In this document: one piece after another, positions 4,278 through 55,755 of the stretch
Layout: each line of letters starts with the position of its first letter
Position numbering within the stretch: the first letter of the stretch is position 1
Assembly: GCA_947034885.2 (NCBI GenBank)
Contig: OX344754.2
Span: 5,649,001 to 5,713,000 of the forward strand
Length of the DNA: 64,000 bases
Direction of reading: 5' to 3'
From: Thuidium tamariscinum
Lineage: Eukaryota > Streptophyta > Bryopsida > Hypnales > Thuidiaceae
Made by a program: the position numbers and the translations under genes
Notes under the pieces: model-generated
The model's input: only the letters and a program-made list of their open reading frames with translations
Database searches by the model: none
Told to the model about the DNA's origin: nothing

Positions 4278-4712
<435 letters not shown>

Positions 4713-28738: not shown

Positions 28739-28770
28739 GGGTCATTGCAAGAAACACATGTACTATTTTG
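28739..28770 (+). repeat. Left terminal inverted repeat of the 27-kb element
   Basis: It starts GGGTCATTGCAAGAAACAC and has 19 bp identical to the right end, then about 10 more with two mismatches. The next 550 bp resemble the arms of the small relatives. Confidence 0.9.
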
Positions 28771-29319
28771 TGTGACACGTTGCATGCTGATCAGTTTTTT
28801 GGCCATAACTTTTGTGTTTTAGCTCCAAATGATTCAAGATTTATAGGAAAGGTACTCATAACTATTATACACCTTCTTTGATTTTTTCATAATTTTCAAA
28901 AATAGTTTACTATCCAAAAATAGACCCCAATTGGATGTCACACTTAGTAGTTTAGGGATTTTTAGTACCTGAATTATACCTTTTCTTAATGATTTTGAGA
29001 TAAAATTTGGATGAGATGGTCTTCTAGTAGATTTCTAGCTCTTCAGGGAAGGATTTTAAAAAAAGGTTAATTTTGTGAGGTGTGGAGGTCTACAAAGTGA
29101 GCTCCTTTCTGCTTATATTTTGAAACATATAAAATATTATTTTGGTGGATTTTTTTGTGAATGACCATCTCCATAAAGTTGTTGCAAATGGTCACTTTTT
29201 ATTTTTTGAAAATACTTATTTTTACTATTTTTCCCTAATTTTTGAATCAAAGTACCTATTTTCTTGAGATTTGGCACTTTTCAAGTTCTCCTACTTAATA
29301 TCATATTCATTAATTTGGT

Positions 29320-30730
29320 AGATCAAGGACCTCCCAAAATAATATTATCTATTAGTAGGGCCAAAAAATCATCTGTAGTTTTATTAAATTTAGTTCGAAT
29401 GGATCTCATTTCATTAGTTAGAAATTGTAATTTCCATTAAAATGATAGTTTAAAGTCGTGGAAATACAGCATTTCCAATCTGAATTTCATGTTTCTATTC
29501 AAAGGTACAATATTTCATACAAACTGGTACCTAGTGAATGTTGCACTTTACCTATTAATATGTGAATCTTTCCTTTTGGTAGTCACCTATTCAGTTAGGG
29601 TATATTGCGGGAAGCAATGCAAGAGACTGACTGTTGTGTGATTGGAGGTTCGGGTTCGAATCATGTTGACCTCCTACTAATTAAGTCGTAGGCGCTACCC
29701 TGATACTGAGCTAGACTAAGGTTGTATTTAGAACTCAAACACAATTTTTTGTAATTTTTTATATCCTAAGTGAATGTATGTAGACATGACAATTGACTTC
29801 TGCAAATTACAATTGACACTAATACTTTATAAAACAAGGCTTCAAAGGTTTTATAAATAGAAAGTAGAAATTTCATTATTATATAGAGTGAAAATAGTAT
29901 TTTCTTCTGAAATTCAAAAACTACACTCTAAAACCTATGTTAATAGCACAGAAAACATCTATCACAATTATTTGAAAATAAATAAAATAATTATCTCAAA
30001 AATTCAAAAACATTAAATCAATATTAGAAAAGGATATGCCCATAAAAAAAAGCTTATTCAAGATCCAAACTTGATATTAATGAAATTCAAAGCGTTTTCA
30101 TAGAATTGTAGAATACCTAAAACTATTATAATTATTTGTCAAAGCCAATTACAACAAAATCAATTTGAGATTAGGGCTTTATTCACTAAAACATCATTTA
30201 ACAAAGATTCTATACCATTTTGACTTCCTTAGTACAAAATTTCCATTAGAATTGCTTTGCTAGAATTCAATCTATTTCAAATATAATATTTTTGATATAA
30301 TTGAATTTAGTAGTTCTTACAATTCAGTCATTTTTTTGAAGAAGTACTTATATAAACACTAATACAAACCTAAATTTTTTTTACTGTGAACATAGTAGAA
30401 TTGTCATTATCGTCTTGAAATTAGAATATAAAATTTCTAAGAATGGATACATCCAAACTAAATTCTCTTGATTAAATATGAAGCCCTCCAAAGTGTAAAA
30501 CGAGCACACTGTTATGCAATAGAGGTTGTAAATCTTCATTTCATTAATGAAAGACTGAAACATTCAGGACAGCTGAACCTAAATTGCAAAGATGAAGAAA
30601 CACAATCCATTGTAGCGAAATGTACTCAAAAGAATAAAATAATTCTATTCTAAAAACTAACTCCCATTAATCAATTACTGTGGACAAAACGATGGCGGCT
30701 CCATGAAACAGAAACTAGCACTGAAATAGC
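29320..30730. other. AT-rich interior of the 27-kb element
   Basis: Apart from the tRNA-like stretch I see no gene; small frames at 30381-30653 have no support. Confidence 0.45.
29640..29719 (-). repeat. tRNA-like sequence (SINE head or decayed tRNA)
   Basis: On the minus strand a D-arm-like 'TAGCTCAGTATCAGGGTAG' (A box) is followed about 30 bp later by 'GATTCGAACCC' (B box). The anticodon region does not fold into a normal 7-base loop and the acceptor stem is not found, so this is not a working tRNA. A tRNA-derived SINE head or a decayed tRNA fits. Confidence 0.45.
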
Positions 30731-30732
30731 CA

Positions 30733-30876
30733 TTTAGGTCGAGTCAACCTAAATCACATCCTCTTCCACAAGAGGACCAACTAATGTACTGTTGTTTAGG
30801 TCGAATCAACCTAACTTGATTCCACCTCTAAGAAACAAGTGCATAGAAGTTGTAATTTAGGTCGACTCAACCTGAA
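30733..30876. promoter_or_regulatory. Three palindromic boxes, cluster 1
   Basis: Near-palindromes at 30733-30753, 30795-30815 and 30856-30876 are variants of TTAGGTCGACTCGACCTAA. They lie 0.9-1.05 kb downstream of the stop of the minus-strand transposase-like gene. Spacing between starts is about 62 bp. Confidence 0.75.
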
Positions 30877-31784
30877 TCGTAAATCTTCACTAAATAAACC
30901 AATGAATCCATTAATTCATGGATTTATTCAAAAACAACCTCTCCACCAAACACTCATACATGGAATGTGTCGAGCCAAAAAAAATAACAAACCGGATAGG
31001 ATTGTCCATTTTTCTTGTAGTATAGTAGCAAAGGTTCATTCACTAGGAATTTTGTAATCAAATGGGAAAATTTATCAATAAAATATATATAATATAAACT
31101 AATCATTAGATTTGACACATTGTCCATTGCAAATTGTCAAAGAATATGAAACAAAACACAAATAAAAAACAACCACTAGAATAATAAATTTTATTACAAG
31201 TTCTAACAATCAATTTCTTAGCTCCAAAAACAAATCAAGAGAGAAGGTTAGGAGAATGTCAATTTGTCTTACCTATATATCTAAACAATAAGACAACTAT
31301 TTGCCTTGAAAGGACTCCAAGAGAATTTGCCACCTTTCTAATCTAGTCTTTATAGAGCTTTCTATATCTAAGACATGTAAAATGACAATTAGCCAATTAT
31401 CCTCTATAAATGTGAAAACAATTTGATAATTGGTCTCATTTTATATAGAAAATGACAAGTAGTCAAAAACAAAAAAATCTACTTGACTACAGAATGCAAG
31501 AACACGTTGAAAGTACCTAGAAGTCAAATAGAACTTGCAATAAAGATTGCATTTGCTACAAAAGTATTTTTTTATTAAAAGTAATTAGAGAAATCAAAGC
31601 TAACAAACTAACACCTTATGCAATGGTTTGATAGAAACCAATATGCAACGTAAGACAATTTATAACAGAGACAAATCAACACCAAATCCAATCCAAACCA
31701 ACTGCTATTATAATAACATTCAACAACGTACATGATGCAACTTCAATACTACCATATGAAGTAGATCTTCATAACTATAACACC

Positions 31785-34700
31785 TCAAGTGAACATTTCA
31801 AGGCTCCGGTTTATCACTTCGATTTGAACAGCCGGAATCTTCAACAAGCACTGCCAAGTATCTTTCTTGATTTGAGACTTCCATGTTGTCATCAAAGCAT
31901 TAGTATGCTCCCAAATTGGAGGATCATTTATATCCACCTTCCAATGCAGACCTCTTGCACTATCCCAACTAGTATAGTAGTCTCGCACATCCTGGTCTCT
32001 TGATGTCGGACGAAAGTACTGGATCAATATACAATTTGGATGCTCCGGATTGCAATCCAGATTAGACAATGCCCTTGCAATCCAAACTGGCCATGTATCA
32101 CCATCTGCACGACGAACTGCTACAAAATAACCTTCAAAGAGATCACGACCAACCCTGAAAGATGGTTGTGGACGACCACGCAAAGGCCCTACATAAGCAT
32201 CGTCCTCCCCGAACTCCTCAAGTTCATCACCATCTTCTCCTAATTGATCGGCTTCAATGGCTTCAACTCTAGTACTTGGCCAGAAACCATCCTTCAAAAC
32301 CATGGATGGATGTAGTGGTTCTTGCAAAGCATTCTTTACATCACGCCAATAGTATACTACATGCTCAAAACGCCTTCGACACTCTCTTGTGACATCTGCA
32401 TTACACAAGTTCTCCCAATACTTCACAAAGCCTCCAATGCCTTTTTCAATGTCTTCCACCCCTCTCATTGGTTTAGGGTGAACTGGCAATGGCACTCCAT
32501 GAGGCCACAAACTACGTCCCTCAGAATCTTCCTTCCACAACTTGATACCTCTACCATCCTCCCCTAACCATTCAAGATCAGTGCAAAGCAATTTGTACTT
32601 CATGACTGGAACTCCATTTGAATCCAAGTAGAACTTCACTTGTTGTGGCTTTGTATGTCCAACAAGGATCTCATCACCATCAACAAACGAACTTGCTATA
32701 AATCCCTTAAAGTCTGGCACCTCCTCAATGAGGTGGGGAATAGTTGGAATGGATCCCACATCCATGAACGACTTCATGAGTGCCGGAACTGTTGGGAAGT
32801 TCTCCTTCTTCAATAGCATGCTCCATCTCCCAAACAATGCATCGATGTCATTGTGCGGTGGCCAACTATCATGAAGTTCATGTAAACCTCTTGAAAAATC
32901 TTGTTGGCCACCAAAAGAGACCAGAAACAAAAAACATATCAATTCTTGTTGTCACCAGTGGCATTGTCCATTTGCACATTAAGAATCGGAGGCAATGGTG
33001 TTCCAAAAACAAAGGTTTGTGGTGGCAGCGGTAGTGCTGCTTCACACATTTTTGCACCCTTCAAAACCTTTTGAAATAAGTTGGTAGACCCTGACCCCAC
33101 AAGCAACATTCTTAAAGAAGACTTTGGTGGTTCCTCTAAGTCTCGTAACAACCTCGCCATGGAACCAATAGTGTAGTTCGAATCATGGGGGAAGATATCC
33201 AAGCCATAATGGGCATATCGAACATCACCATGACCGTGGGCAATCATGCCCATGACAGAAATTGGCAACTTCACTAAGCCGTCGGTGTCCTTGCTCTTGT
33301 GTGAGAAGACCGAGCAAGCCATCTTGGCATGATCCATCTTGTCGTGCATGATCGTGAGGCACTCATGTAGAGAATTGAAAGAGCGGTACCAATTGGCGTA
33401 GTAGTACTCTCTATGAGCATGAGTGATAGCCAGATGTTTGTCCAACCTTCGTGACCACTTCAATGCGCTGACAGATCTAGCAAATGCGCTCTTCTTCAAT
33501 TCCTGCAATTGATCACAAGTGGCACACCGAGCAAAATTGTCCCCCGGTTTTTTTACTTCAAATTCAAAGAACTTCTTTGACCTTATTTTGCTCAAATTAG
33601 AGAGGGAGATCTCTCTTAAGCCTAAGGTAGCGTTTGTTTCATTGAAAGGTAGATGGCAAAATCATAGAGACCACCTTCTCTCCAGACTTCATACTCCGTG
33701 TTTTAAGTGGCATGTGGTCTGCCTCCTTCTCGAGGATGCACTTCAGCGTAGCAATTGCTTGTTCAGTGTGTTGCCTTGGCTTTAGCAAACCGAAGTTGCC
33801 ATGGTCCCTTGCTTCTCGATTGTTGTTTGCATATCTTTGGTAGCGGTAGAATGTAGCCTCTGGGACTCCAGAAATGAGCATCCACGCCCACATGCACACA
33901 CTGATCCCCTCCACGACAACCATTTTCCTCCCACTCAAGTCACGGTGAATGGACCTATGAACTTTTGTCTTCATATGGGCCCTGAACTTGAACGTCGAGC
34001 GTTGGTACATGCGTTCCCGAAATGCTCATATCTTCTCCCTCGGAAATGGCTGAATGCAATTTTTGGCACATCAAATTTTGCTGGAGACAGAGTTGATAGA
34101 TTCTTGCGCCAGAAGTTCCTTTGTTCTCAACCCAACTTCGCGTGGTGGATTTCGAATGACACTCGTGTACGGTCGAGCAAATGTCAATGATGGTGGGTTT
34201 AAAAGACTTGCTTGGAGTCGGTTGAAATTATCCCGGGCTTCGTGGTCGCGAAGACTAGCACCTCGACAGTGGACGTAATCAATTGGCCAGGCCATCAATG
34301 AATAGACCCGCTCCTGTGGGATGTCCTCAACAGAGTGTGTCTTTGAGATGTGAATTGCAACATGGGTGTCCTCAAGAGGGCCATTTGCTCCCAAGACAAG
34401 GTCCGAGGATATGCTATGACAAGTTCCCTCCCCTACGAGCGTTCCCTAAATGTTGTAGAGTGTAACACACATTGTATTCCAAAGTCGGCGCAGCAGCCAT
34501 TAGAGGAGATTCGAGGGCAACAGGAGACTGCAAAAGCCCTGTTCCCCGAATTGTTCCCGATCAGTAATTAATTAATTAATTTTTTTCAAAAAAGAAAAGA
34601 AAAGAAGTTCGTCCTGAAATGCAAAAAAAAGTCCAAAAAAAAAATTCAAAAAAATATTGGTGACGTGGCACACTCTCGACCACGTCAACACAGGCCAGTT

Positions 34701-34877
34701 CCGCATTCCTGCGGCAGATTCCTGCGTTCACAGCTTCGGGAACTCAGAGTCTCCCATTGCCCTCGAATCTCCTCTAATACCTTCGCACTCAGGAATGCCG
34801 ATATTCATTCCCTCGAGAACCTGGAATTCATCGTCTGACGAGTCCATAGAACCTCCTTGAATGAGCAAAGAAGACAT
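31785..34877 (-). pseudogene. Transposase-like gene, RNase H-like (DUF7869 type), decayed
   Basis: The relic starts at ATG 34877 and ends at TGA 31785. In order it shows an acidic N-terminus, a domain with conserved Trp/Tyr/His, a Cys pair (CATC), a candidate first Asp in 'HDKMDHAK', a second in 'NVQMDNATGDNKN' and a third in 'HNDIDALFGRWS'. A C-terminal part has 'FVAVRRADG' and 'WPVWIA', resembling a chromatin-reader-like module. The arrangement fits the DDD core of DUF7869-type proteins, which I assign from memory. It is broken by a MITE (34500-34777), several 1-bp frameshifts (near 34428, 34050, 33640 and 32855) and a TGA at 32939-32941 right after DNKN, best explained as CGA to TGA. It is the best candidate for the source of mobility of the 27-kb element. 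Confidence 0.7.
34500..34777. mobile_element. MITE inserted in the transposase-like gene
   Basis: The 278-bp unit has inverted ends TTAGAGGAGATTCGAGGGCA / TTAGAGGAGATTCGAGGGCA (right end read as reverse complement) and is a relative of the MITE at 14201-14489. Leaving it out brings the codons on both sides of the gap (…CEG and MAAAP…) into one frame. Its interior contains an AATT repeat and a poly-A/T tract. Confidence 0.8.
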
Positions 34878-34963
34878 GGTAGCTGAATCTGAACATAAGA
34901 CAAACAAGTTAGTTATCATTGAAAAGAAAACAGAACACAGAGGAAGTCATCTCCTAATAACCA

Positions 34964-35561
34964 TTTAGGTCGACTCGACCTAATTCAACATTACCATTTA
35001 GGTCAATTATTCGATGGAGTTGGTAATGATTCAATTCAAATTAATTTAAGTAGATACCACTATGACCCCGAGAATGACGAAGATATCTTTGAGTTGAAAT
35101 AAGACAACTGTAGGCCTCAAATTAGGTCGAATCGACCTAAATAGTGAAATTGAAATCACTAATCACTTTTATTTATACGTTGCAAATGACCTTATTATTT
35201 AATAAAATAACACCAAGGAAATTCATGTTGAAGGTAACGTTTTTCTCATTTAGTTATTGAATACAATTAACCAGAATTAGATAGATATATGTTTTAGGTC
35301 GACTCGACCTAAACTGTTCAGCCTTCCTTCTTCGACATTCATTTATAATCAGATCTGAATATCATTAGATTCGTAATCGTAGAATGAAGACATGTGATTG
35401 AGTTGGGAATGTACTCAGTTTAGCTCGACTTGACCTAAACTATAGTCGATATAAGTACATTGAAAATGTAGGGTTAATTTAGGTCGACTCGAGCTAAATG
35501 ATTCCCTCTGACATTAACCAGGACAAAATATTTCATCATATTTAGGTCGAGTCAAGCTAAA
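34964..35561. promoter_or_regulatory. Palindromic boxes, cluster 2 (six full, one half)
   Basis: Boxes lie at 34964-34984, 35121-35141, 35293-35313, 35419-35439, 35478-35498 and 35541-35561, with a half-site near 34997. Several are perfect or one base off TTAGGTCGACTCGACCTAA; variants replace AGGTC by AGCTC on one arm. The cluster lies just upstream of the transposase-like gene, probably in its leader intron, because a 'tatgttcag' acceptor-like site precedes the ATG. Confidence 0.8.
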
Positions 35562-35599
35562 TTGCTCCGGATTTCGCGGAAGCCCTGTTTTGTAATATA

Positions 35600-36215
35600 A
35601 CACTTCTATAATTACCCGGGTTTTACGGCATGAAAATAGAAGTCCTCTCACTGTTGGAGCCACTGTCGATAGCACAATCAAAACACACAATGATGAATCG
35701 CAACATCCAGCACTGGAGTGTGGGAAGCAAGAATAAACGATCAACAAGCAAATGCATTTGTCGACAAGGATTGCTGTGCAACTCCAATATTCGACAACAA
35801 AGATGTTAGGAATGAACTACACAGAATACCCTGTAGAGCCTACAAAAATTGTGTATGCCATACCCAAGTCACCGAAGCTTTCCGCCACGACCTTCGACAC
35901 TGCGGTACTCTACGACGTACTACAAAAAGCCTTCAAAATGCACAGAACACCTAACATTCGAAGAACACGCAGCGTGCAAACGAAAGAGCAACAAAAGACC
36001 TCAAGAATGTGTCACCGAGAATGAGAGTAAGCTGACCCTCCGGAAGGCGTTGGAACGTAGGTCGAATGACGACGATTTCTTGGCGGGAGGCACAAAGGCG
36101 GCAAGTACAATGGAGACGTTTGAATTAGGAAGTAGCCGCTGCAATTTCTTAGTCACTGATCGGAATCTGCTGACTTCCTTTTCCTGTTATTGGAAAAGGG
36201 CAGACGCGGCATAGT
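35600..36215. other. Possible decayed coding region of unknown type
   Basis: Base composition is higher in GC than the surroundings, and overlapping plus-strand frames (35718-35954, 35752-36024, 35849-36214) shift from one to another. The minus-strand equivalent could be an upstream exon of the transposase-like gene. I do not recognise any motif. Confidence 0.25.
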
Positions 36216-38825
36216 GACATTGAATGATTCCGGCCCGTTTCTAAAATTGTGAGACACTTCATGGCTACACTCAAACAGTAATAGTATTCTTTCTTTCCGT
36301 GCAGTAAAGGTATTCCTTTTCTTGTATTTTGAAAAAAAAACCAATAATAGTATTCCGTTTCATTTGTGTCCCAAAAAAAATATTGATAGTATCTTGAAGT
36401 TACAGTATTTTTGAACAAGTACTTCTAAAACAACATTCTATTGTAAAGAAGAGGGCACACATCCAATTTGCTGCTCGTAGCCAAGGGCAAAATTCCACTC
36501 TTTTTTTGGCCATCATATGAGGGTATGGAGGAGCATTTTTGTTGACCTCAGCTTCACTATCACTCCTTTAAATTCTGTATCCAAATTTTAATCTTCGCTT
36601 TATTCCCTCCTTTCTAACAGGCTTTTACTTTTCTCCGTTATCATTATGGCATAAAATTCTCTCAAGAATTTCATTTCATGTTCCATACTATAATTGGAAT
36701 AAAGCACAGTTATTCTTTCTACTGTATCTTGCCTTCCCACTCAATTCAAGAAAAAGTCCATGATCCTAGATTTTAAAATAGACAGTACTTTAAATTTCGG
36801 AAAAAATCTTCTAAGTACATTTTGAGGCTCCATATTCTTTGTGACTTGAAAAGGACATTTCAAATCCTTCTACCTTGGAGTAAATATTATAGTTTTTGCG
36901 TGGTAATGGCAAATAATTAGGGGAAATATGACTCCTCTTCTTATTAAACTATTGGATTAAGGATTCAAAATTTATGATTTTCGAATCAAGGTTTTCTGGG
37001 TCTAAGCTTTAGGGTTCAAGATTCAAAGGTTAAATTTTTAGGGTTAAAATTCTTGAGATTTTTAGTTTGCACATATTTACTAGACTCTCTTGCAATTGTA
37101 AGGTCTACAACTAGTCAACTTTAAGGCATAGAGTTTCACAAGGAAAAAACTTTTAACGCATAGAATGTAGATGTTGTTTCAAATTTAATTTTGCCTTGGA
37201 ATTTTTAAGTTCTCAATTCAACATCTTCAGACCTTTGTTTAAAAAGAATATGAACCCAAATGAAGAGAAATTGTAGGGCTCATTATTTTCTTCTACGCCT
37301 ACATTTATATCATCCAGAAAGAATGGGACATTGTATTTTATTACCAAAAATCCAGTAAAGGACATTTTTGTCAATGTGAAAGCATAGGGAAAAAAAACGT
37401 ACGATTTAAAAGTATTTGTATACCTCCTACAAGAAGCACAAAGAAATTATAATTTGTACATCATGCCCCTTGAAAATTATTCATGAACAATTGAAATGAA
37501 ACTTCAAGTGCTTTTTCATTAGTGAAACTTGATTATTCAAGTGCTTTGATTAGTATGATTAATATGCTTAAAGTAATTATAGAAGTTGCTAATGTTTAAT
37601 GGAATTCAAATGCATAGGAAATTCAAAATTGTAGGCCTCCTAAACATTGAGCTATTAAGGCTCATTCAATTTCCCTAAACATCCTAAATATTAAGACAAA
37701 ATTAAATTCAAATTCAAATTATTTGATTGGAACAATATAACATGGAATTTTCATGAAATATTCTTATATATACATAATTTCTACAAGTTGGTTCTTTATT
37801 GGATTTAATCTTTTTACAATATACAATTAAAATGAAGACCAAACTCTAGTGATTACTTTCTAGAATATCCTATCCATTTAATCAAGTTCTCCAAAAAAAA
37901 GCAATATGGTTAAATATACATTATGGAATGGGAATGTACGCTCTTGCATATAAAAAATTAGTACCATTATTTAATCCTTCGATTTGTTTATCATCTAATA
38001 TACCTAGGATTTAGATGAAGTTCTCTTAAATTTTTAAAAAATGAAACTTACTCTAACAAAAGAAAAGAAAATGCAAACGGGCTACGAAAAAATAATTGAA
38101 ACTCCTATGCATGATTCATATAAGAAATAGTTGCCTCTAATACTTTTTTGTTTCATAATTGGGTTATTTTAAAAACAACAAGAATGAAGATGAAAGTCTC
38201 ATTCATTTCTAAATACCTTACTTACCTTGCTATGACGATAAAAGTAAATAATTTCTATGTAACTTTTTTACATTCAAATAAAGACAATTACTACCTAGTC
38301 TTTAGGCATGACTCACTCCTGAAACTATAAGGAATAAGATCACAGTTATGAGTTTTTCTTTAAAAGAATCCAGCACACTTGAACAAGTTTCAAAAGTAGG
38401 CAAATGAATTTGAGAGAAAAAAATAGAACTCAGGCTGTATATAATTTTTACTCATATTAGTACACTATTACTAATTACTTAAACTATGACCATTATTTTC
38501 TTAAGTGCAAAAAGAATATAAATGAATCTTTCATTATCTTCTTGAACCTACAATATGATTCAATAAATTCAAAAAACATTGCAATAGGCAATTGGGCATA
38601 GGAAAATAGTTGAATTTGTATATATGATTTAGGATTGCAAATACGGTCCACTAGTTCTTAGTAATTAGACAATAGGATATTGAAAATTTTAATTTTAATA
38701 TAAAACATTCATATTATAACATTCAATACGTACTACACTCATTGAAGGTACTACATGATTCGACATCTACATTTGAAGTATTCAATAGAAATGAGGCACT
38801 TAGAAAGTATAAAATTTAAAATGGG
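36216..38825. other. AT-rich interior without recognised gene
   Basis: Nothing recognisable: no credible frame, RNA or bounded repeat. Confidence 0.45.
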
Positions 38826-39650
38826 TTTAAATAGGAAATGAAAGTTAAATGGCATTGCAACTTAAACATCTTATTTCTTGGCTTCCATGCACGTGAATTT
38901 TGACACATTTGCATGCTCTTGCAGTTTCCTTCAAAAATGGCAAGGCTGCCCTTTGTGTTGCATTAAATGAGAATGGAGCAATAAGATCAAAAAAATTTAA
39001 TATGGGTTTTAGAAAATGAAAGTTCAATGGCATTCCAACTTACACATTTTATTTTTTGGCTTCCATGCACGTGAATTTTGACACATTTGCATGCTCTTGC
39101 AGTTTCCTTCAAAAATGGCAAGGCTGCCCTTTGTGTTGCATTAAATGAGAATGGAGCAATAAGATCAAAAAAATTTAAAGTGGGTTTAAGAAAATGAAAT
39201 TTCAGTGGCATTCCAACTTATACATTTCATTTTTTGGCTTCCATGCACGTGAATTTTGAAACACTTGCATGCTTTTGCGGTTTCCTGAAAAAATGGCAAG
39301 GCTGCCCTTTGTATTGCATTAAATGAGAATGGAGCAATAAGATCAAAAAAATTTTAAATGGGTTTTAGAAAATTAAAGTTCAATGGCATTCCAACTTACA
39401 CATTTTATTTTTTGGCTTCCATGCACTTGAATTTTAAAACATTTGCATGCTTTTGCAGTTTTCTTAAAAAATGGCAGGGCTGCCCTTTGTGTTGCATTAA
39501 ATGAGAATAGAGCAATAAGACCAAAAACATTTAAAATGGTTTTAGGGGTTAGAAAGTTCAAAGGCATTCCAACTTACACTTTCTTTTTTGGCTTCTATGC
39601 ACGTGAATTTTAATACATTTGCATGCTAACCCTTCTGCAATATACTAGAA
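38826..39650. repeat. Satellite array 1, 178-bp period, about 4.6 units
   Basis: The phrase 'gcttccatgcacgtgaattt' recurs at 38881, 39059, 39237, 39415 and (variant) 39591, giving a 176-178 bp period. The units share 'aaaatggcaaggctgccc' and 'aatgagaatggagcaataag'. The three minus-strand frames starting MPLNFHF/MPLKFHF are repeat products. Confidence 0.92.
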
Positions 39651-41740: not shown

Positions 41741-44110
41741 GCTCCGTGAAATTCTACTTTGGTCCCCCTTCACGTCAAATTTCAATTCTATGCCGATTTG
41801 GAAAAAAATTCCAAAAAATGGTAGGGTAGCCTATTTTTTGAAATTCAACAGAAAATAGACAATTGTAAGTTTGACATGGGAATTTGTCATAGGACATGAA
41901 TGTTCTATAACATTAAAAATTCTCCCTATTTTTTGTTGCCCCTTTTACATTGATTTCCAATTCTATAGGCCATTTTCAATTTAACCCAACAAATGACAAG
42001 GTAGCCTTATTTTTGAAATTCAACCCAAAATAGACGATTTCAAGTTTAACATGGAATTTGACATAGAACATGAATGTTCTATGACATTTAAACTTCTCCC
42101 TATTTCTTTTGGTCCCCCCTTTACGTTGATTTTCAATTTTATAGGCCATTTTCAATTTAGCCCAAGAAATGGCAGGGTAGCCTATTTATTGAAATTCAAC
42201 CAAAAAAAGACAATTTCAAGTTTGACACGGGAATTTGTCATAGAACATGAATGTTCTATGACATTTAAACTTCTCCCTATTTCTTTTAATCCCCCCTTTA
42301 CGTTGATTTTCAATTGTATAGGCCATTTTCAATTTAACCCAAGAAATGACAGGGTAGCCTATTTTTTGAAATTCAACAAAACATAGTCAATTTCAAATTT
42401 GGAATGGGAACTTGTAATAGAACATGAATATTCTATGACATTCAAATTTCTCTCTATTTTTTTTGTTCCCGCCCTTACGTTGATTTTCAATTGTATAGGC
42501 GATTTTGAATTTAACCCAAGAAATGGCAGGGTAGCCTATTTTTTGAAATTCAACAAAACATAGTCAATTTCAAATTTGGAATGGAAACTTGTTATAGAAC
42601 ATGAATGTTCTATGACATTCGAACTTCTCTTTATTTTTTTCGTTCCCCCCTTTACGTTGATTTTCAATTTTATAGGCCATTTTCAATTTAGCCCAAGAAA
42701 TGGCAGGGTAGCCTATTTATTGAAATTCAACAAAACATAGTCAATTTCAAATTTGGAATGGAAACTTGTTATAGAACACGAATATTCTATGACATTCAAA
42801 CTTCTCTTTATTTTTTTTGTTCCCCCCTTTACGTTGATTTTCAATTGTATAGGCGATTTTGAATTTAACCCAAGAAATGGCAGGGTAGCCTATTTTTTGA
42901 AATTCAACAAAACATAGTCAATTTCAAATTTGGAATGGAAACTTGTTATAGAACATGAATGTTCTATGACATTCGAACTTCTCTTTATTTTTTTCGTTCC
43001 CCCCTTTACGTTGATTTTCAATTGTATAGGCGATTTTGAATTTAACCCAAGAAATGGCAGGGTAGCCTATTTTTTGAAATTCAACAAAACATAGTCAATT
43101 TCAAATTTGGAATGGGAACTTGTTATAGAACATGAATATTCTATGACATTCGAATTTCTCTCTATTTTTTTTGTTCCCGCCCTTACGTTGATTTTCAATT
43201 GTATAGGCGATTTTGAATTTAACCCAAGAAATGGCAGGGTAGCCTATTTTTTGAAATTCAACAAAACATAGTCAATTTCAAATTTGGAATGGAAACTTGT
43301 TATAGAACATGAATGTTCTATGACATTCGAACTTCTCTTTATTTTTTTCGTTCCCCCCTTTACGTTGATTTTCAATTGTATAGGCGATTTTGAATTTAAC
43401 CCAAGAAATGGCAGGGTAGCCTATTTTTTGAAATTCAACAAAACATAGTCAATTTCAAATTTGGAATGGGAACTTGTTATAGAATATGAATATTCTATGA
43501 CATTCAAATTTCTCTCTATTTTTTTTGTTCCCGCCCTTACGTTGATTTTCAATTGTATAGGCGATTTTGAATTTAACCCAAGAAATGGCAGGGTAGCCTA
43601 TTTTTTGAAATTCAACAAAACATAGTCAATTTCAAATTTGGAATGGAAACTTGTTATAGAACATGAATGTTCTATGACATTCAAACTTCTCACTATTTTT
43701 TTTGTTCCCCCCTTTATGTTGATTTTCAATTGTATAGGCCATTTTGAATTTAACCCAAGAAATGGCAGGGTACCCTATTTTTTGACATTCAATGAAAAAT
43801 AGAGAATTTCAAATTTGGAATGGGAATTTGTCATAGAAACGAATGTTCTATGACATTCGAACTTCTCTCAATTTTTTTTGTTCCCCCATTTACATTGATT
43901 TCCAATTGTATAGGCCATTCAGAAATTTAGCCAAGAAATGGTAGGGTAGCCTATTTTTTGAAATTCACCCAAAAATAAAGAATTTCGAGTTTGACATGGG
44001 AATATGTCACAGAACATGAATGTTCTTTGACATTCAAACTTCTCCCTTTTTTTTTAGTTCTCCATTCAAATTGATTTTCACTTTTATTGGACATTCGGAA
44101 ATTAACTGAT
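41741..44110. repeat. Satellite array 2, about 177-bp period, about 13 units
   Basis: 'ACGTTGATTTTCAAT' or a close variant recurs at about 41947, 42123, 42300, 42477, 42654, 42831, 43008, 43185, 43362, 43539, 43716 and 43893. Each unit has 'aaatggcagggtagcc' and a 'gaacatgaatgttctatgac' stem. Two unit types (with 'cccgccctta' or 'ccccccttta') partly alternate, and the central units are the most alike. Layout and the 'aaatggcaaggctgcc' block suggest a common origin with array 1. Confidence 0.93.
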
Positions 44111-45830: not shown

Positions 45831-45839
45831 TAAGTAGGA

Positions 45840-47060: not shown

Positions 47061-47166
47061 TATAAGTAGCTGTTGTTGAGGAGGTGTAATTTTGTGCAGG
47101 TCTTGCAGACATAGCGTTCTTTTGTGAAGTAGAAGTTGTTTGTAGTGATGTAGTGGAGGGACTTTG

Positions 47167-47899
47167 GGGTCATTGCAAGAAAGACCGACCGATTTATGTA
47201 GCGTTTTCCACAATACTGCTGAAATTTTCGGGAGTACTGTATAATTAGAAAAACAATTTTTAAAAAATGTAAAAAATATGTTTTAGGTATATACCTCTAA
47301 GAAGAAGGTACCCTAGGAAGGAAATGTGTAGAAAAATTCTCTAAGTAGGAGAACTAGAAAAGTGCAAATTTTCATGAAAATAGGTACTTTTACATTTTAA
47401 TCTGTAAAAAATAGGGAAAAGAATTTTTTTTAAAACTAAAAATTGGCAATTGGGGAAAACTTTATGATGAAGAGATTTCACCAAAAGAATGATCTCAAAA
47501 TCATCTTAAATGTTCAAAAGTATGCGCGCAAGGGAGGCCTGTTCGCGCACATGTAGAGGAAAGAGAATAATGATTTTTAAGATTTCCTTTGGTAGAAACA
47601 TGCCTATCTAGTATGGGAATAGGCAACAAAAATTTCAGCTTTAGATCATTAATTTGGGATGTTCCCCAGTACTAAAAACCCCTAAACCACAAAGTGTGAC
47701 AAATTAGCTTAATTGAAATTTAATTATAAAATGATTTTTGAAAATTTCTGAAGAATAAGGAATTTGATTGTTGTCATGTCAGACATCTTTAGTCAAAATT
47801 TCAAGTTAATACAATTCATACTTTAAAAGTTATAATCAATAACAACTCCGTCATTCAAAGTGTGACGCAAAATAGTACCGGTCTTTCTTGCAATCACCC
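47167..47899 (-). mobile_element. Nested non-autonomous relative, TSD TTTG
   Basis: The left end is GGGTCATTGCAAGAAAGACC and the right, as reverse complement, GGGTGATTGCAAGAAAGACC. TTTG is duplicated at 47163-47166 and 47900-47903. Its left part matches the right end of the 27-kb element ('ggagtactgta', 'tatatacctctaa', 'attctctaagta') and its right part matches the left end, so it is an end-to-end deletion derivative inserted in reverse orientation into its own larger relative. Confidence 0.9.
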
Positions 47900-48342
47900 T
47901 TTGTGGAAGCGATTTGCATTTGCTTCTGCCAGACACGTACGGGTGATCGCAATTTAGTTTGTGTTTGAAATGTATAAGCAGCATTTGCATTTGTATTGTA
48001 GGGCTACTTAGGAATTTGAACAGTGGCTTCAGTTGGGAAGCAATACATGTCATTAGGCTACAATTTCAAGTTTGAGTGTTTTCAATCTTCTGTCTTCCCA
48101 TGCTTATTGCAGTAGTTCGAGTTATTGTGAGGTTTAGTACTTTAAGTGATTCTAATGCTAGCAATTATCACATTATACTAGCAATCTTTGCAATGAAGGT
48201 TTAGTAAACAAATGTAAACCCAATGTAGGACATAAACGTCAGTGAGTTGTCTTTGAGTTTAGGTTTCAAAATCTGGTTTACTGTAATGCAGATAGCGCTT
48301 CCCAGAAAGGAAGCACGCTGTACATTACATCGATGAGTGCAG

Positions 48343-48868
48343 TTTAGGTCGATGTCAATTTAGGTCGATGACTCTTTAGATCGACTGTAATATAGGAAAG
48401 ACCTACGAGGTTAGTAAACCTGATATCGACAAGTCAATTTAGCTCAACTCGACCTAAACTAGCATGATCAACGTAGAGACAGAGAAGGAAAACAAAGTAA
48501 TAACGAATATATTCAAACTGTATACGATGAATGATTACCCGTTTATAATGATCTAGTAATATATATAATGTATTTGAAAACAATTAACCAGCAGTACAAA
48601 TGCAGATTAGCTCGAGTTGAGCTAAAAGATCAAAATCTCCAGATTCAAATTTCGATGTTAAACGTCGTCAACAATGCAGTATTGCAGTTTCCTGGAAATG
48701 CTCGTTTAGGTCGACCCGACCTAAATGTGATAGCTCTCAAAGTACTCCTGATGAAATGAAGTACAAGACTGACGAGAGGGGTTAGTCCGATATTTACTGA
48801 AATAGTAGCCGTAACATAGAATCAATTCCAAGGAAACCCATACTCAAATTAGGTCGAGTCGACCTAAT
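48343..48868. promoter_or_regulatory. Palindromic boxes, cluster 3
   Basis: Half-sites lie near 48343, 48359 and 48375, and full boxes at 48438-48458, 48606-48626, 48705-48725 and 48848-48868. The last is 36 bp before the first ATG of the plus-strand gene. The 63-residue frame at 48568 runs through two boxes and is probably not coding. The cluster may lie in a leader intron, since 'aaaatgcag' just before 48904 is a possible acceptor. Confidence 0.8.
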
Positions 48869-50342
48869 TAAGCTCACAGTTTATGAAATCCTGTAAAATG
48901 CAGGATGAAAGAATACGTCCCCAAACTGGAGCAGTTCTTCAAACGCGTTGACATTCTCCCAGATGAGGAAGATGGTGACGATTTTAACAACGAGGGCGAG
49001 TACTGGGAACTCATTGACCCGATCGTTGTCAAATGCTGGAGTCTCAAAATGATTCCGATGACACACAAGATCTGCTTCTGCAGACAGTATAAAGAGCAAA
49101 ACATTTTCCACCCAATCTCGTATGAAGAACAGATCAAGGAAGTCTCACCTGACCTTGGGACGATGATAAAAATCCATTGTGTAACGGCGATAATCGGGAA
49201 GAAGGCAGAGGAGCAGTATCATTTTACTCTCGTGATCGACTCGCTCGAGATCCCATTTTACATCAGCCATTTCCTGGACAGTCTCCAGGATACAGAGTAC
49301 GCCGCCGAGATTCCTGAGTTGGAGAAAAAACTAGACAAGGGATATTGGAAGACTAAGAAAGGATCCCAGGTTACAGGGAAGAACTTGTGCGACAGGCTGC
49401 GACAGTTATTTGTCGACTTCGCAGTTCTAAAAGGAAAGCTTAACTTGAAGAAAGCACAGACTGCTGGAAGATCTATATCCCATGACCCACCAAGTCATAT
49501 TGAAGGGCAAAGCTTGCAAAGAACGCCCGGAACGCAACAAAGTCATGGTACGAGGCGAACCAAAACATCAGGGACGCCTCCAACTGCGACGAGGAAGAGC
49601 AATCTCGCATCCTCCTCTGCCAAAGAGGCTCCCGAGACAGATGAAGCCGGACCCGTCGAAGCCAAGTCTAAGCTTCACATTAGCTGTAACTCAGGTTCTA
49701 GCAGCTTATGACCCGAAGCGCTCCGTTGACTACAAGGAGTCCACGGAGGCTTATAAGAACTACTGGGCTACATGCAGTGATGCCTACGTCTTTGACATCG
49801 AGGAGAAGAAGAAGATAAGCATAGACCAGCTCAAATCAGCACCAGCAGATGTCAATATCCAAAGCCATGAGGAACGGCTGGTTGTCGACATATTTCACCA
49901 TCTCATGCACATGCTGGACAAAACAGGCAAGCAAACTCTTTGCGTAATGCCTAAGGATCAGGAAACGAAGCTGGGTCCAGAGGATTGGGAACGACTGAAA
50001 ACTGGCAAGTTTTACATTGTGAACGGGCAGCACAGTGTCTTCGCCAGTAAGATGATGGTTGAAAAGAATGTCGATGAAACCATCTTGAAGCATTTCCACG
50101 AGTGGGACTGCTATATTGTGTGGGCTAAATCCAACGAGATATTGAGGACAATATTGGCTTACTACAATCGAGTAAACCATTTTGTAGCTCTGAAGCCGTC
50201 GTAGTCCACTAATATTCTTGGAGCAAGAACCTGCTGGATCAATATGGGAAGCCCCAGGAATCCGAAAGATGCAGCTCCAGTTGGGACACTGTCCGTTGCA
50301 AGGCGCAACATAGAGACCAAAAAGAATGCCAAGAAATTCAAG

Positions 50343-50476
50343 GTAAGGTAGATTAGGTCGACTCGACCTAAACTGATCATTTCTCGTCTTTTCATTTCTC
50401 CATTTTCGTGACAATTTAGGTCGGCTCGACCTAAAGTTGTACCCATGTTTCGTTACTGATGTGTCATCAACTACAG
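50343..50476 (+). other. Intron with two palindromic boxes
   Basis: A 134-bp, phase-0 GT-AG intron (AAG|GTAAGG ... CTACAG|GAA) joins two open frames in register. It contains boxes at 50352-50372 and 50415-50435. Confidence 0.8.
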
Positions 50477-51561
50477 GAATTCACAAAGGCCATGAACATT
50501 TGCTTTGCAATGTTGGATGTGGTTAAAGCCCAAAAGGCTTCAAGAAGGAAGGGCAAAGAAGAAAACCTCAAAATTACAAACGAATTGAAGATCATCACAG
50601 TCCCTAATGATGTTTTCAAGATTTGGAGTGAGGTTATTTCATGCGCGGCTCACGGGGAGCTCATGGACTCGGACACCCTCATGAAATTCAATGACAAGCC
50701 CAGCTGGAAGTCCGAGAACGGGAACGTGACTCACGAGTTTTTCAAGTGGTTAGGGAACCTCTCGTACGAAGACTTGAAGAAGCTTGCCCAACATATACTA
50801 CATATCAATCCGAAGAGGCAGAACGCAGCGTATCCTAAGGTGACGGTGAAGATGATATCCTCTGTCCTAGAAAGCTGCTATACAGCAAAGGACTAGGTTG
50901 AGCGATGTAAGAGGAAATACCTTGTGAAGCGGGGGTGGCACAACATTGACCCCTCTCTCGGCTTGCTTAATGCATTCAATGAATTGAATGCAACAAAATG
51001 GAGAGAATTCAAGAGCACCTGCAGTATCACAAGCGCCACCATGAACGTCCTTCTCGAGCAGCCTAGCGACGACTACTGGAAGGAGGCAAAGCAGACAAAG
51101 TCAAAGAACAAGACTGTTGCTGATTTGTCACCCTTTGCAGCGGAATTCTTCAAGGTGTTTCTCGAGCGCCGGAGCAACTTCGTCAAGCCGAAGGCAACAA
51201 CTCATTACCGGACGTACAACATAAGTGAAGACAAGCACTATGAGTGGCCAACTGATGCTTGGCGAGCAAATACTCTAGAGAACATCAAGTTTGGAGTAAT
51301 TGATTTTCGGTACGTGAGAAAGTCTACCTCACGTTCTTGCAGGATAAATTGAGGGTGGATTGGATGCTCCCCAGGCTTGCGTATCGGGCCCCTGACACTG
51401 ATGTCTTCAATAAGCCGTGTCTCTACAATGAGACCATGTACAGGATCCATAACACGGAGCTACGGATGGAATTTTACCTTGAGATTATGAGGAAATTTGC
51501 TCTGGGATCAAGAAATGTGCTACTCCTTTTCACCGGCTCAAAGCTCACCTGCGCAGCAATG

Positions 51562-51735
51562 GTGAGTATCTTTTAGATCAAGTCGACCTGATTTGCTCTT
51601 GTACCAAAAGATTTGAATTGCTACTCCATTTAGGTCGAGCCGACCTAATTTGGATCATGACAACTGCAACTTTGTTTTTCTGAATGATATTCGGGTTACA
51701 CCTCTAATGACCTGAATGTGCTTGTTTTATTGTAG
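51562..51735 (+). other. Intron with two palindromic boxes
   Basis: A 174-bp, phase-0 GT-AG intron (ATG|GTGAGT ... TTGTAG|ATG). It contains boxes at 51572-51592 and 51629-51649, as in the previous intron. Confidence 0.8.
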
Positions 51736-52819
51736 ATGATGAATACCAACGTCTACGCAGTCGGTACATCTGACGAGTCAAAAGATTGGACGCAAATCGT
51801 GAAGCTTAGGAAGTCTCTTGACAAGAACGACTTTCTTCCGAAGGGGTACTTCGTGAATGAAGAGTTCTATCCGTGCAGACCCACTGAGGAGTACACGCCG
51901 CCTTCGAGGCGGAAGAAGACTTCCACTGGATTGCCAAGGACACCGTCTTCTAGGTCAAAGAAGCCGGTTGTAGAGACGGAGGTGGAGGAACTATCAGACG
52001 ACTACAGTTCAGAGGACGACACGAATTACTCTGACCCTCCTACCATGAATGAGGAGCACTGCACTCCTCCGATTACTCTATCATAGAGTGTAAGGGGTTC
52101 ATCAGCCTCTTCAAGGCAACCACTTGAGACTCCAAATTTGGGAACCCTGGCTCCAAGGGCGGCGTCAAAGAAGCAGAAAAGACACGAAGAGGATGAAGAA
52201 GAGGAGGACATGTAGACACAGCTTCCAGGCTCAAGGAGAGCCGTAAGAAGGATTGAGAGCAGAATTTAGCCTTGCATGAATAGACGAGCGAGACACTCGA
52301 CGAAATCAAGAGCTTTATGGTAAACAGTGATGCCCAGAAAAGGTCATTTTAGTAGGCAGTTGTGAACCACCTCACATGCGTTAAGCCTATTTCCTGGAGT
52401 TTTCATGTTGTAGCTGCAGGGCCGATGGCAATCCATAGCGCGGGCTTTGGATCAATGAGCGACCTCGCCTTCAGTCTCCCATCCTAAGAGCCTGCTAATT
52501 TAATGCCGCAGGATTTTTTCGTGCCTGTATCCGTTCCTGTGGTTGCAGTGGAGCAGGCTCTTCCTCTTGTTCCCTCAGTAGATGCTCCTCCGCCTCCTCC
52601 CTCGTCTTCTGAAGTGGCTGCTCCACTACCTCCTCCCGAAGCCGAGATCGAGGCTAGGGTAATGGATGTCGAACATTCTCCACCAAAGGTCGACGTAGCC
52701 GTGGATAACGAAATGGTTGATGTTGTCCCTCAACTGATAGTTGATGACGCAGCTATCAAGGATTCCACGGATGCGTCCACAGGTGCATCCAGTTGACACT
52801 CTACTATGCTTCAATGTGT

Positions 52820-52840
52820 TTTAGGTCGACTCGACCTGAT
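52820..52840. promoter_or_regulatory. Palindromic box after the GQH gene
   Basis: The box TTAGGTCGACTCGACCTGA lies 24 bp after the stop of the last exon, in the presumed 3' untranslated region. Confidence 0.75.
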
Positions 52841-53011
52841 GTGTATTCTAGTTTGTAATATAGTGATAGTCGTTGAGAGGAGTTGTTCATCTCAGGTTAT
52901 ACAGATGTCCAAGTGGACCGAAACCATCGAGATCATAATTTTGATTTTTGAAAATAAATTTTGTATTATACAACTCTTCTTGAGTGATTAATATACGGCC
53001 TTCTTACAAAT

Positions 53012-54260
53012 ATGTGTCGTGGAATAATTGAAATTGCAGAACATGTACGTGCTTTGAATAATCCGTATTCTATGCATTCTCCATCTACGATGAACGAATC
53101 TCCAGAGCTTGTAACTCCTATAGCACTGGAACATGATACGTCTGCAAACGAAGACGATCTTGCATTTCCAAATGAGGTTGTTGCTTTGGATGAGCCATCT
53201 CTAGTAATGGGTGAAGGAGTTATCCAAGACTCTGCCTTGATAGAGTTGGTGATTCCAAACCCAACGACGCTGGGTGGAGATCATGTCATAATAGACCCAA
53301 AAATGCAAGTATGTGACATGGTTGTATGACTTCTCTTTTCTCAGCTGATTTCTGATGTTTTTTTTTTCTCTTTTTATAACTTCTTATTTCTGCTTATTCT
53401 TGCGCCATAATGTCATGAGGGTCGGATAGTGACGAGCTTTGGATTTTTCCGTTTCATAGCAAGGATCAAACCCTGCATGTCATCTTGGAGGAACGTCGGA
53501 GAGTGTCCCGGTCCCATTAAGTTCCAGGCTACCGGACAAGTGGTTGAACGTCATCCTGGACCTGAATGGGATCCTTTGTGTCACGGAAGACGCAAAGTCC
53601 AAGGGTTGGTCAAAGTCCCAACGTGATGTTAGCTAGCCGCACTCGGCTATTCATCCCGCATTTGTGGGACCCAAGCTAGTGTACGTCCGCCCAAACTACG
53701 CAGAGTTCTTGCGCAAATTATCTACCTTTGCACACGTCTCGGTGTGGAGCTCAATGAAAAAGCCCACAGCTGAAGAAATCTGCCTTTACCTTTTCGAGGG
53801 TTTAGAATTCCCAGATTTTGTATTTGGGCAGAACTCCTGCACCACGTTGAAGTGTCAGGAGAACACAAGCTACCTCACGACGTTCAAGGAACCAGGAACA
53901 ACGAAGGAGCTGTTCTTGAAGGACCTCAATCAATTTTTTAATAGCCATCAAGGAAAATTCACAAGTGCTAACACAATCATGGTTGACGACAGTCCGGTGA
54001 AACACATCTTAAACAAGCCAAAGAATATTGTTCTCCCGGACACTTGGACCAACAAGGGCAACGGTCTGAGGGATGCGTTTATCTTGGAGAACCTCCTTCC
54101 CTAGCTAGAGCGCCTCCATCTCGCTTAAGATGAGGGCATTAAATTTTTCCGAGAGAATAGTAAGGGGAAGATAGGGCGCCAAATGCTCTGTGATGAGCGG
54201 AACTGCAAGGAATACAATAGATTAATGGATGTAGTTACACAATCACGCTCCTTGAGATAG
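53012..54260 (+). pseudogene. FCP1/NIF-like HAD phosphatase, decayed
   Basis: Exon 1 (53012-53308) encodes an acidic leader. A GTATGT donor and an acceptor at 53457-53459 give a phase-0 intron into a frame that runs to 54260. It shows HAD motif I as 'VILDLNGILC' (53550-53579), motif II 'VSVWSS', the Lys motif 'ELFLKDL' and 'MVDDSP' for the acidic motif. These match plant FCP1/NLI-interacting-factor-like phosphatases, with Asn replacing the second Asp of the usual DxDx(T/V). In-frame TAG (53634), TAG (54102) and TAA (54126) break the frame, yet similarity continues past each of them. AATAAA at about 54390 may be its poly(A) signal. A captured host gene or a transposon accessory is equally possible. 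Confidence 0.7.
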
Positions 54261-54437
54261 GGCTTCCATGCGATGGATATATTTTAGCGATTTCTCTGTG
54301 GTCCATGTAGTCTTTTTAGCTTGAGGCAACCTTAATTGTAAATAGGCTTCTAGTTTGTGCTTTGCCTTTGTATTTCTGGACCCACATCTTAATAAATCGT
54401 GTATGAAACATATTGTCTTTATTATAGGGTTCACCTT

Positions 54438-54458
54438 TTTAGCTCGGTTGGACCTATT
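54438..54458. promoter_or_regulatory. Degenerate palindromic box
   Basis: 'TTAGCTCGGTTGGACCTA' is a weak member of the box family, between the HAD gene and the next reading frame. Confidence 0.5.
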
Positions 54459-54565
54459 TTGTTCTTTATTTCACGTTGTTTATATGTATTTGCTTGCTCA
54501 TCCATTTGAATTGAAATTGTGTAAATGCTGTTGCCAACTTTTGATCTTTTCTCTTTTTACCTCCA

Positions 54566-55190
54566 GACTGTACTTCCACCTGCTATAGTGGTCCAAGGGG
54601 GCGTCCTCCCGTGCTCTGCGTCCGTCGACTCCTTCCTTGAGTACGGACAAAATGCAATCTTGAGTACTGGGAACTTTCTGTGCTCCGTGGCCGCGGCCAA
54701 CTCTACAATGGACTTCTCAGTGATGCCCGTGGACGACGGTGTCGTCGACAGTCCACCAAGTCGGTTGCCTTTGCTGGTGAAGTCGTCCTCGCCTTCACCT
54801 CTTCGGTCGAGGGATCCTTCCACCTCACGCATGTCACCTTCTACGTCCGAGAAACTGATACAGAGGAAACTGTTTGACAAATTCCGTGACCTTGAATCCG
54901 CTGGTCATTGTCAAGATCAAAGACCTACTCTGTTAAGGGAGACCAAGTGCCAAGTGCGCTCTCATGGTGTTTTCCAACATCGCATGCGAGCTGCATCACT
55001 AAATGTAAGAAGGACGAAGACACATGATGGCCTTCTTCAAAGTTGGGCCACTTATCTATGGCAGGATGTGTGGGATCAGAATTTCATTCAGCAATAGAGG
55101 CTACGAGAGCTACGAGAGTATAAGAAAATTGACAATGGTTATAGTCGTGGGCCAGAGATTTTGAAGGCGATTGCGACTCTTCATAGCTAG
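54566..55190 (+). pseudogene. Unrecognised coding frame at the end of the gene block
   Basis: After a possible acceptor ('tttacctccag|act') a frame runs to TAG 55095 and stays open beyond it to TAG near 55188. It has a Gly/Ser/Cys-rich start, then a Ser/Pro-rich stretch and a basic C-terminal part ending with 'ATYLWQDVWDQNF'. A second plus-strand frame overlaps it (54680-54877). It may be the last exons of a third gene. The family is not recognised. Confidence 0.35.
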
Positions 55191-55723
55191 ACCAATATGT
55201 AGCAAATTTGGATATGTAGCAATGACTATATTGTATAGCTCAGCAGTAGTCCAAGTATATAATCGCATTGTCCAAGCCTCTTATAGTATACATTGCATGA
55301 GTGAATCACACTCAGTACATAAATATACACAATCATGACAATCATTACAAATACAGAATCACATATGTTGGATACTTGTTGGAATTATCCGGCTAACTAT
55401 AAATACAAGAGTTCTTGTTCATGGTGTTCTTTTGTCTACATCTATATTTTTTCACGATCAATTTATGACTGTATATTCTTCCAAATTGCTTGTTTGTTAA
55501 TAGATAAGTTAATAAGTACTCTATTTTAGTCTCTCGTTTCAATGGAAAACTCTCATTTTAATGAATATAGTGTTACTTAGAGAATTTTATCTATCAATTT
55601 TCTTCGGTGAAAACCTTCATTTTAGAGGTATATACATTATTCCTATTTTTCAAATTTAAAAAAAATTAGTTTTCTAATTTTATAGTACTCCTGAAAAATT
55701 CATGAGTACTGTTGCAAAACACA

Positions 55724-55755
55724 ACAAATAGGACAGGTGTTTCTTGCAATGACCC
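55724..55755 (-). repeat. Right terminal inverted repeat of the 27-kb element
   Basis: Read on the minus strand it starts GGGTCATTGCAAGAAACAC. The inward sequence has the 'ggagtactata' and 'tatatacctctaa' blocks shared with 13489-14525 and 47167-47899. Confidence 0.9.

Follow-up and report, generated by a model that had tools for sequence, protein, structure and literature searches.

Transposons that act on a motif of their own are known from plants, and bacteria possess proteins that load at palindromic sites. VANC21, encoded by the Arabidopsis Mutator-like element VANDAL21/Hi, is reported to bind a short motif (YAGTATTAY, arrayed in one orientation) that is dense in the noncoding DNA of its own element, introns included (PMC5735166), and to remove silencing marks from that element (PMC5735166, PMC10398659). 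Bacterial proteins of the ParB type are described as loading at palindromic sites, spreading and sliding (PMC7053999, PMC11790492), and the operator OB of one of them, KorB, as containing TTTAGC and GCTAAA (PMC11790492). Here we analyse 64 kb of the genome of the moss Thuidium tamariscinum (contig OX344754.2, positions 5,649,001 to 5,713,000; hereafter the window), in which a large DNA transposon (positions 28739-55755) carries two broken genes, one for a probable transposase with the domain DUF7869 and one for a GQH-HAD protein with a predicted ParB-like fold, together with about 20 copies of a palindrome (the boxes) that may be loading sites of the second protein.

Several classes of DNA transposon are distinguished by their target-site duplications (TSDs) and enzymes. 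Sola is defined by a 4-bp TSD and a DDD-type transposase, and Academ carries XPG-type nuclease and helicase domains beside its transposase; the TSD is the 3-bp TWA in PIF/Harbinger, 8 bp in hAT, 9-11 bp in Mutator-like elements and 3 bp in CACTA. To our knowledge, cut-and-paste elements of tens of kilobases are rare. The piggyBac elements duplicate TTAA (PMC5199201), and for Sola1 in bivalves a mean length of 5445 bp is given (PMC10294476). Helitrons of up to 39 kb in maize and Ogre elements of 16-25 kb are listed in a review of giant transposons, the portion of which cited here contains no terminal inverted repeat (TIR) element of the present kind (PMC6431247).

Ends, target-site duplication and empty site

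The features that delimit the large element are as follows.

28739..55755: TIR DNA transposon, 27,017 bp as it stands (inverted ends, TTAG on both sides, empty paralogue)
28735..28738: left TSD, TTAG (flank comparison)
55756..55759: right TSD, TTAG (flank comparison)
28739..28757, plus strand: left TIR, identical to the right one at 19/19 positions (pattern search)
55737..55755, minus strand: right TIR (pattern search)
10434..10437: single TTAG of the uninterrupted paralogue 10070-10689, equivalent to the empty site (flank alignment)

A sequence-only reading of the window had described a DNA transposon with exact 19-bp ends, a TTAG duplication and an empty site preserved near 10430 with its TTAG intact, and each part of this description was borne out. 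The 19-mer GGGTCATTGCAAGAAACAC has two exact copies in the window, inverted with respect to each other, at 28739-28757 and 55737-55755. When the flanks of the element are joined with one TTAG, they align across the joint to 10070-10689 (74.8%, 650 columns); aligned separately, the left flank stops at 10437 and the right flank starts at 10434, an overlap of exactly TTAG. Because the flanks align through the joint with a single TTAG and overlap by exactly these bases, the insertion is genuine, and so are its duplication and the empty site.

When up to four mismatches are allowed, GGGTCATTGCAAGAAACAC occurs at nine places in the window, which correspond to four complete elements and a fifth cut by the window end. 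Besides the large element, these are:

47167..47899: nested internal-deletion relative, made of about 559 bp of the left and 182 bp of the right end of the large element, TSD TTTG (alignment, flanks)
13489..14525: second deletion relative, TSD TTAA, holding a nested small element at about 14200-14487 (alignment, flanks)
937..2025: fold-back relative with both arms from the left end, TSD TTTC (alignment, flanks)
62408..64000: relative of the 937-2025 element, truncated at the end of the window (end pattern, alignment)

Scoring of the 4-bp duplications on elements with these ends, which the sequence-only reading had proposed for full-length copies in the source genome, gave the same four bases on both sides in 4/4 complete elements of the window (TTTC, TTAA, TTAG and TTTG). 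Three of the four have empty paralogues in the window: the joined flanks of 13489-14525 align across the joint to two paralogues, 7878-8440 and 16946-17524, and those of 937-2025 to 56884-57256, the base-by-base inspection of the joint having been made for the large element only; the joined flanks of 47167-47899 have no match across the joint within the window.

When the nested element 47167-47899 is read on the minus strand, 559 bp of it match 28739-29297 (64%) and 182 bp match 55574-55755 (77%), which together cover nearly all of its 733 bp. The element 13489-14525 is built in the same way, with the nested small element in addition, whereas in 937-2025 and in the truncated element at 62408, both of fold-back form, left ends make up most of the sequence. 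Since the left and right ends brought together in 47167-47899 are those of the large element, the two ends of the latter evidently belong to one family. The large element is a TIR DNA transposon making 4-bp TTNN duplications, as is seen in its ends, its duplication, the empty sites and the deletion derivatives. The inverted ends are identical at 19/19 positions, the TSD has a fixed length (4 bp in 4/4), and an RNase H-fold transposase is present according to the predicted structure described below.

Genes of the element

Two genes were recognized, with the following parts.

31785..34877, minus strand: broken DUF7869 gene, probable transposase (tblastn with protein P0001; Pfam DUF7869)
34503..34779: nested small element interrupting the initial coding part of the DUF7869 gene, approximate limits (ends inverted; 14195-14490 matched at 63-64%)
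48905..54899, plus strand: broken spliced GQH-HAD gene (tblastn with proteins P0121 and P0122)
49808..50196, plus strand: stretch corresponding to the predicted ParB-fold domain of the GQH protein, approximate, with NGQHS at about 50023 (sequence compared with residues 300-429 of protein P0124)
50343..50476, plus strand: inferred intron 1 of the GQH gene; its boxes start at 50353 (intron position 11) and 50416 (homologues and GT/AG)
51562..51735, plus strand: inferred intron 2 of the GQH gene; its boxes start at 51573 (intron position 12) and 51630
53536..54104, plus strand: HAD domain of NIF/FCP1 type, DLNG replacing DxDx (Pfam NIF, E 2e-11 on 53637-54101)

Full-length DUF7869 relatives have about 940 amino acids. 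On the element, tblastn with P0001 found three main pieces of 71-75% identity and a 34-residue N-terminal piece of 47%; the gene is damaged by in-frame stops at 34448, 34073, 34028 and 32941, by two frame breaks and by one nested insertion. The predicted structure of the DUF7869 protein has an RNase H fold resembling Mos1, Metnase, integrases and TnsB, the matches found by Foldseek on its own being below significance. D430, D552 and D594, candidates for the catalytic acidic triad, are invariant, as alignment columns, in 49 aligned DUF7869 proteins (49 of the 120 listed, mostly the longer ones). Sequence searches of the PDB with P0001 and P0121 gave no match, and a literature search did not find the name DUF7869, the only family name that Pfam provides for the putative transposase. 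We conclude, with good support, that the DUF7869 protein is the probable RNase H-fold (DDD/E-type) transposase of the element. An XPG-type nuclease or helicase was seen in none of the 10 scanned open frames of the two genes, nor in 35837-36211, the one part scanned elsewhere in the element.

The sequence-only reading had counted three genes, RNase H-like, GQH and HAD; we find two, since GQH and HAD form one gene. Both parts are present in a single protein of Ceratodon, P0121, and this, with the order of the matching pieces, rules out two separate genes. In the pieces examined, TAG stands in frame at 50202, 50894, 52084, 52213, 53634 and 54102. With both genes broken, this copy of the element is dead, and it could be moved only in trans.

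The predicted core of the GQH protein, modelled on the relative P0124 and not on the broken copy, has a ParB/Srx-like fold, as in the N-terminal domain of ParB. The GERRxRA motif of ParB CTPases was not found, NGQHSVxAS standing at its place, as set by hhalign, in 26/26 GQH proteins. The hhalign score of GQH against ParB is below significance, and the GQH proteins have no match among PDB sequences at E 10. The family phrog_1033 is matched by 3/26 GQH proteins (E 2.7e-4, 0.042 and 0.11), and NCBIfam DGQHR by 1/26 at E 0.0085, which is weak for a scan of 26; absence of a family from the VIA-align lists was not counted as exclusion. With moderate support, the second gene would encode a ParB-fold protein with a HAD tail of NIF/FCP1 type. 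In viral contigs, 39 stretches fit the GQH pattern and none was confirmed; a phage tail contig (L001) matching weakly around VGHTHDD was dropped.

A pairing of DUF7869 and GQH genes is seen in this element, and two contig sizes, 559,682 and 109,202 bp, are common to both protein lists, a match made by eye (120 listed DUF7869 and 27 GQH rows) in which equal size is not proof of the same contig. A 110.5-Mb Ceratodon sequence, also in both lists, is too long to count as pairing, and the full-length element with both genes is known here from one copy.

Palindromic boxes

The internal palindromic boxes, which the sequence-only reading had named in passing, number about 20, lie wholly within the large element and are now its most interesting feature. 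With up to four mismatches, 21 copies of the 19-bp palindrome TTAGSTCGANTCGASCTAA are present in the large element, and the remaining 37 kb of the window hold no copy; each of 30 base-shuffled versions of the element yielded 0-1 box. Apart from the four intron boxes already listed, they are placed as follows.

30734..30875: three boxes downstream of the DUF7869 stop, at 30734, 30796 and 30857 (pattern search)
34965..35560: six boxes upstream of the DUF7869 start, at 34965, 35122, 35294, 35420, 35479 and 35542 (probably in a 5' leader or an intron)
48439..48867: four boxes upstream of the GQH start, with more half-sites at 48344 and 48360 (pattern search)
52821..52839: single box in a presumably noncoding part of the GQH gene (pattern search)
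54439..54457: weaker box, three mismatches (pattern search)

Two further boxes, at 29390 and 54316, have four mismatches and may be due to chance. The 18 placed boxes comprise three 3' and six 5' of the DUF7869 gene, four 5' of the GQH gene, two in each of the inferred introns and one at 52821. All 18 lie outside the coding stretches that tblastn mapped, the gap within the 51370-52071 match being taken as intron 2. None of the 21 boxes is found in the small relatives, of which only the ends remain, so the transposase probably does not require boxes for its work at the termini. It is with the genes, and not with the ends, that the boxes are associated.

The fifth letter of the box is G or C between copies, with the dyad mostly kept, and the central ANT is about as conserved as the arms (A in 19/21, T in 18/21). 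The two inferred introns share one layout, in which a first box follows 11-12 bases from the 5' splice site and another comes about 60 bases later, and they look as if built around the boxes.

Boxes also accompany related genes elsewhere. A 4.3-kb contig of a cyanobacterial assembly (L002), which we take as moss contamination, encodes an intact DUF7869 protein whose best segment is 54% identical to P0001. Its gene is flanked by boxes of the form TTAGSTCGANTCGASCTAA, three upstream (0-1 mismatches) and two downstream (2 mismatches); one box stands inside a 27-bp palindrome, and the variant TTTAGCTCGA occurs at L002:111-137.

In unspliced models of GQH genes, the intron-1 tail carries a box-encoded peptide in 10/20 cases, or about nine independent ones, the tails of P0140 and P0142 being identical. 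Chance would give a mean of 0.06 by resampling (maximum 3/20 in 5000) or 0.09 by shuffling (maximum 2), figures to be read with the fact that the peptide patterns were written after the tails had been seen. The count used the 20 of 27 GQH proteins whose exon end could be placed by eye, P0121 and six others being left out, and in no fewer than four of these tails (P0144, P0126, P0137 and P0127; 0-6 residues) there is little or no room for a box. In a cruder control, two of the same peptide patterns were sought anywhere in the proteins and were found in 9/27 GQH against 3/120 DUF7869 proteins; one of these three, P0073, has its match in the leader, which reads like two boxes. The boxes have been conserved together with the genes. 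Viral contigs gave no match to the box patterns, nor to the end pattern GGGTCATTGCAAGAAACAC.

Length of the element

The sequence-only reading had stressed a size of 27 kb, which stands as the present span. This length includes two nested elements and two tandem arrays and may therefore exceed that at the time of insertion. The arrays are:

38811..39627: 178-bp tandem array, 4.6 copies (repeat finding)
41811..44106: 177-bp tandem array, 13 copies (repeat finding)

The two arrays are related to each other. A length of 177-178 bp is the size of plant centromeric satellites, and the large element could seed satellites. The small element in the DUF7869 gene (34503-34779) and that at about 14200-14487 within 13489-14525 are 63-64% alike and form a second family of small elements.

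Other features of the window

Directly left of the R2 flank lies an inverted repeat (19639-27814) with arms of about 1.9 kb spanning about 8 kb, the arms being 84-89% complementary in 5/6 listed pieces and 76% in one; it is another large element or a duplication. The segments 87-2325 and 61571-64000 repeat each other in direct orientation at a distance of about 61.5-62 kb; the listed pieces are 90-98% identical, and each copy holds a fold-back element at the same place. Three segments are paralogous (7157-8659, 13197-15044 and 16228-17742), the middle one with the TTAA insertion. An open frame on the minus strand (59828-60391) encodes a dirigent-like protein (Pfam E 2.4e-16), and a CTAT microsatellite of about 109 copies occupies 4278-4712.

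Discussion

We favour, as the probable reading, a TIR transposon with a DUF7869 transposase and a ParB-fold GQH-HAD protein, for which the boxes are putative loading sites. Loading at the boxes is suggested because a ParB-type fold and dispersed palindromes occur together, and with moderate support the boxes in the noncoding parts of both genes are candidate loading sites of the GQH protein. An anti-silencing or transcription-supporting role is proposed because VANC21 shows a use for such a protein in plants. We infer every step beyond the conservation of the boxes. The DUF7869 transposase would act on the ends and on the approximately 560 and 180 bp of subterminal DNA kept by the small relatives. 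The GQH protein would load at the boxes and mark the element's own DNA, and this marking might keep the element's genes expressed or free of silencing, with the HAD tail as the presumed effector. HAD proteins of NIF/FCP1 type act on RNA polymerase II. More tentatively, one may envisage a partition-like system, in which a ParB-fold protein with an FCP1-type tail loads at about 20 parS-like palindromes lying in introns and leaders of the element, spreads over it, and protects it from silencing or tunes its transcription.

It is quite possible, and compatible with the favoured reading, that the large element belongs to a described superfamily with 4-bp TSDs, such as Sola, and has acquired extra genes. 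The 4-bp duplications and the RNase H-like fold of the transposase point in this direction, and the comparison with Sola and Academ that the sequence-only reading had called for was made on the duplication; nothing speaks directly against such a placement, Pfam giving the protein only as DUF7869. Other classes do not fit: TTAG, TTTC and TTTG duplications beside TTAA are unlike those of piggyBac, and a TSD of 4 bp in 4/4 elements differs from that of PIF/Harbinger (3-bp TWA), as well as from those of hAT, Mutator-like elements and CACTA (8, 9-11 and 3 bp).

Alternatively, the boxes could act as RNA hairpins, located in introns and leaders and controlling how transcripts of the element are spliced or exported, the ParB-fold protein having another job. 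We regard this as rather unlikely, even though inferred introns and leaders do contain boxes, the first box of the two introns being at position 11 or 12 from the 5' splice site, and a box starts two codons after the exon-end V in 5/12 tails (chosen for a box or box-like peptide). Against hairpins, boxes are also present about 0.9-1.05 kb past the stop codon of the DUF7869 gene and, in L002, on the 3' side of the gene, and the window has no Rfam match at gathering score. The A and T of the central ANT cannot pair across one base and yet are conserved like the arms, a weak argument since both letters are part of the consensus by which the boxes were picked.

Binding of the boxes by the DUF7869 transposase, with GQH-HAD as cargo that has no role at them, appears improbable. 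It would agree with L002, where boxes flank a DUF7869 gene and no GQH gene was seen (only the DUF7869 frame was translated), but the small relatives keep the ends without boxes, which seem to be outside the transposition substrate, and boxes recur in the introns of diverged GQH genes. Least credible is the idea that the ends belong to two separate small elements sharing TTAG by chance, with 27 kb of ordinary host DNA between them: small relatives with the same ends are indeed present in the window, but 559 bp from the left end and 182 bp from the right end correspond to the two parts of a single 733-bp element, 47167-47899, which joins both ends within its own TTTG duplication and so contradicts the idea of two neighbours, the sole further ends inside 28739-55755 are those of this nested element, TTAG is common to both sides, and the empty paralogue joins both flanks.

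In the more tentative, partition-like reading, a eukaryotic mobile element would possess its own counterpart of ParB-parS. Binding of the boxes by the GQH protein, if it occurs, would make this a second sequence-specific system of the VANC kind, on a DNA-clamp fold of bacterial type, and a possible tool for chromatin targeting. A likely job, that of transposase, can now be given to moss members of the unnamed domain DUF7869. A literature search on ParB with transposons in bryophytes, plants or eukaryotes returned only unrelated papers, judged by title and the start of the abstract.

In its proposed logic the moss system would resemble VANC of the VANDAL elements, and in its proposed mechanism the ParB, Noc and KorB clamps at palindromes. 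As in VANDAL21, an accessory gene is combined with a family-specific motif dense in noncoding DNA, introns included (within the window, 21 copies inside the element and none in the 37 kb outside); the moss box, however, is a 19-bp palindrome and the protein core is predicted to be of ParB type. With ParB-parS, Noc-NBS and KorB-OB it would share the fold of the N-terminal domain, in the model, as well as palindromic sites, many and scattered as those of Noc are. The box variant TTTAGCTCGA also has the TTTAGC of the KorB operator, a likeness of six letters that is possibly due to chance. In contrast to these bacterial systems, the moss genes reside on a plant mobile element, with NGQHS for GERRxRA, no parA seen, and a HAD tail. 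The GQH motif recalls proteins of the DGQHR/DndB type, and DndB binds an operator. Sola shares the 4-bp duplication and a DDD-type transposase, but Sola1 elements of bivalves average 5445 bp. Pack-MULEs are likewise described as TIR elements with extra gene pieces (PMC6431247), whereas they, Helitrons and Ogre employ other enzymes and make other duplications.

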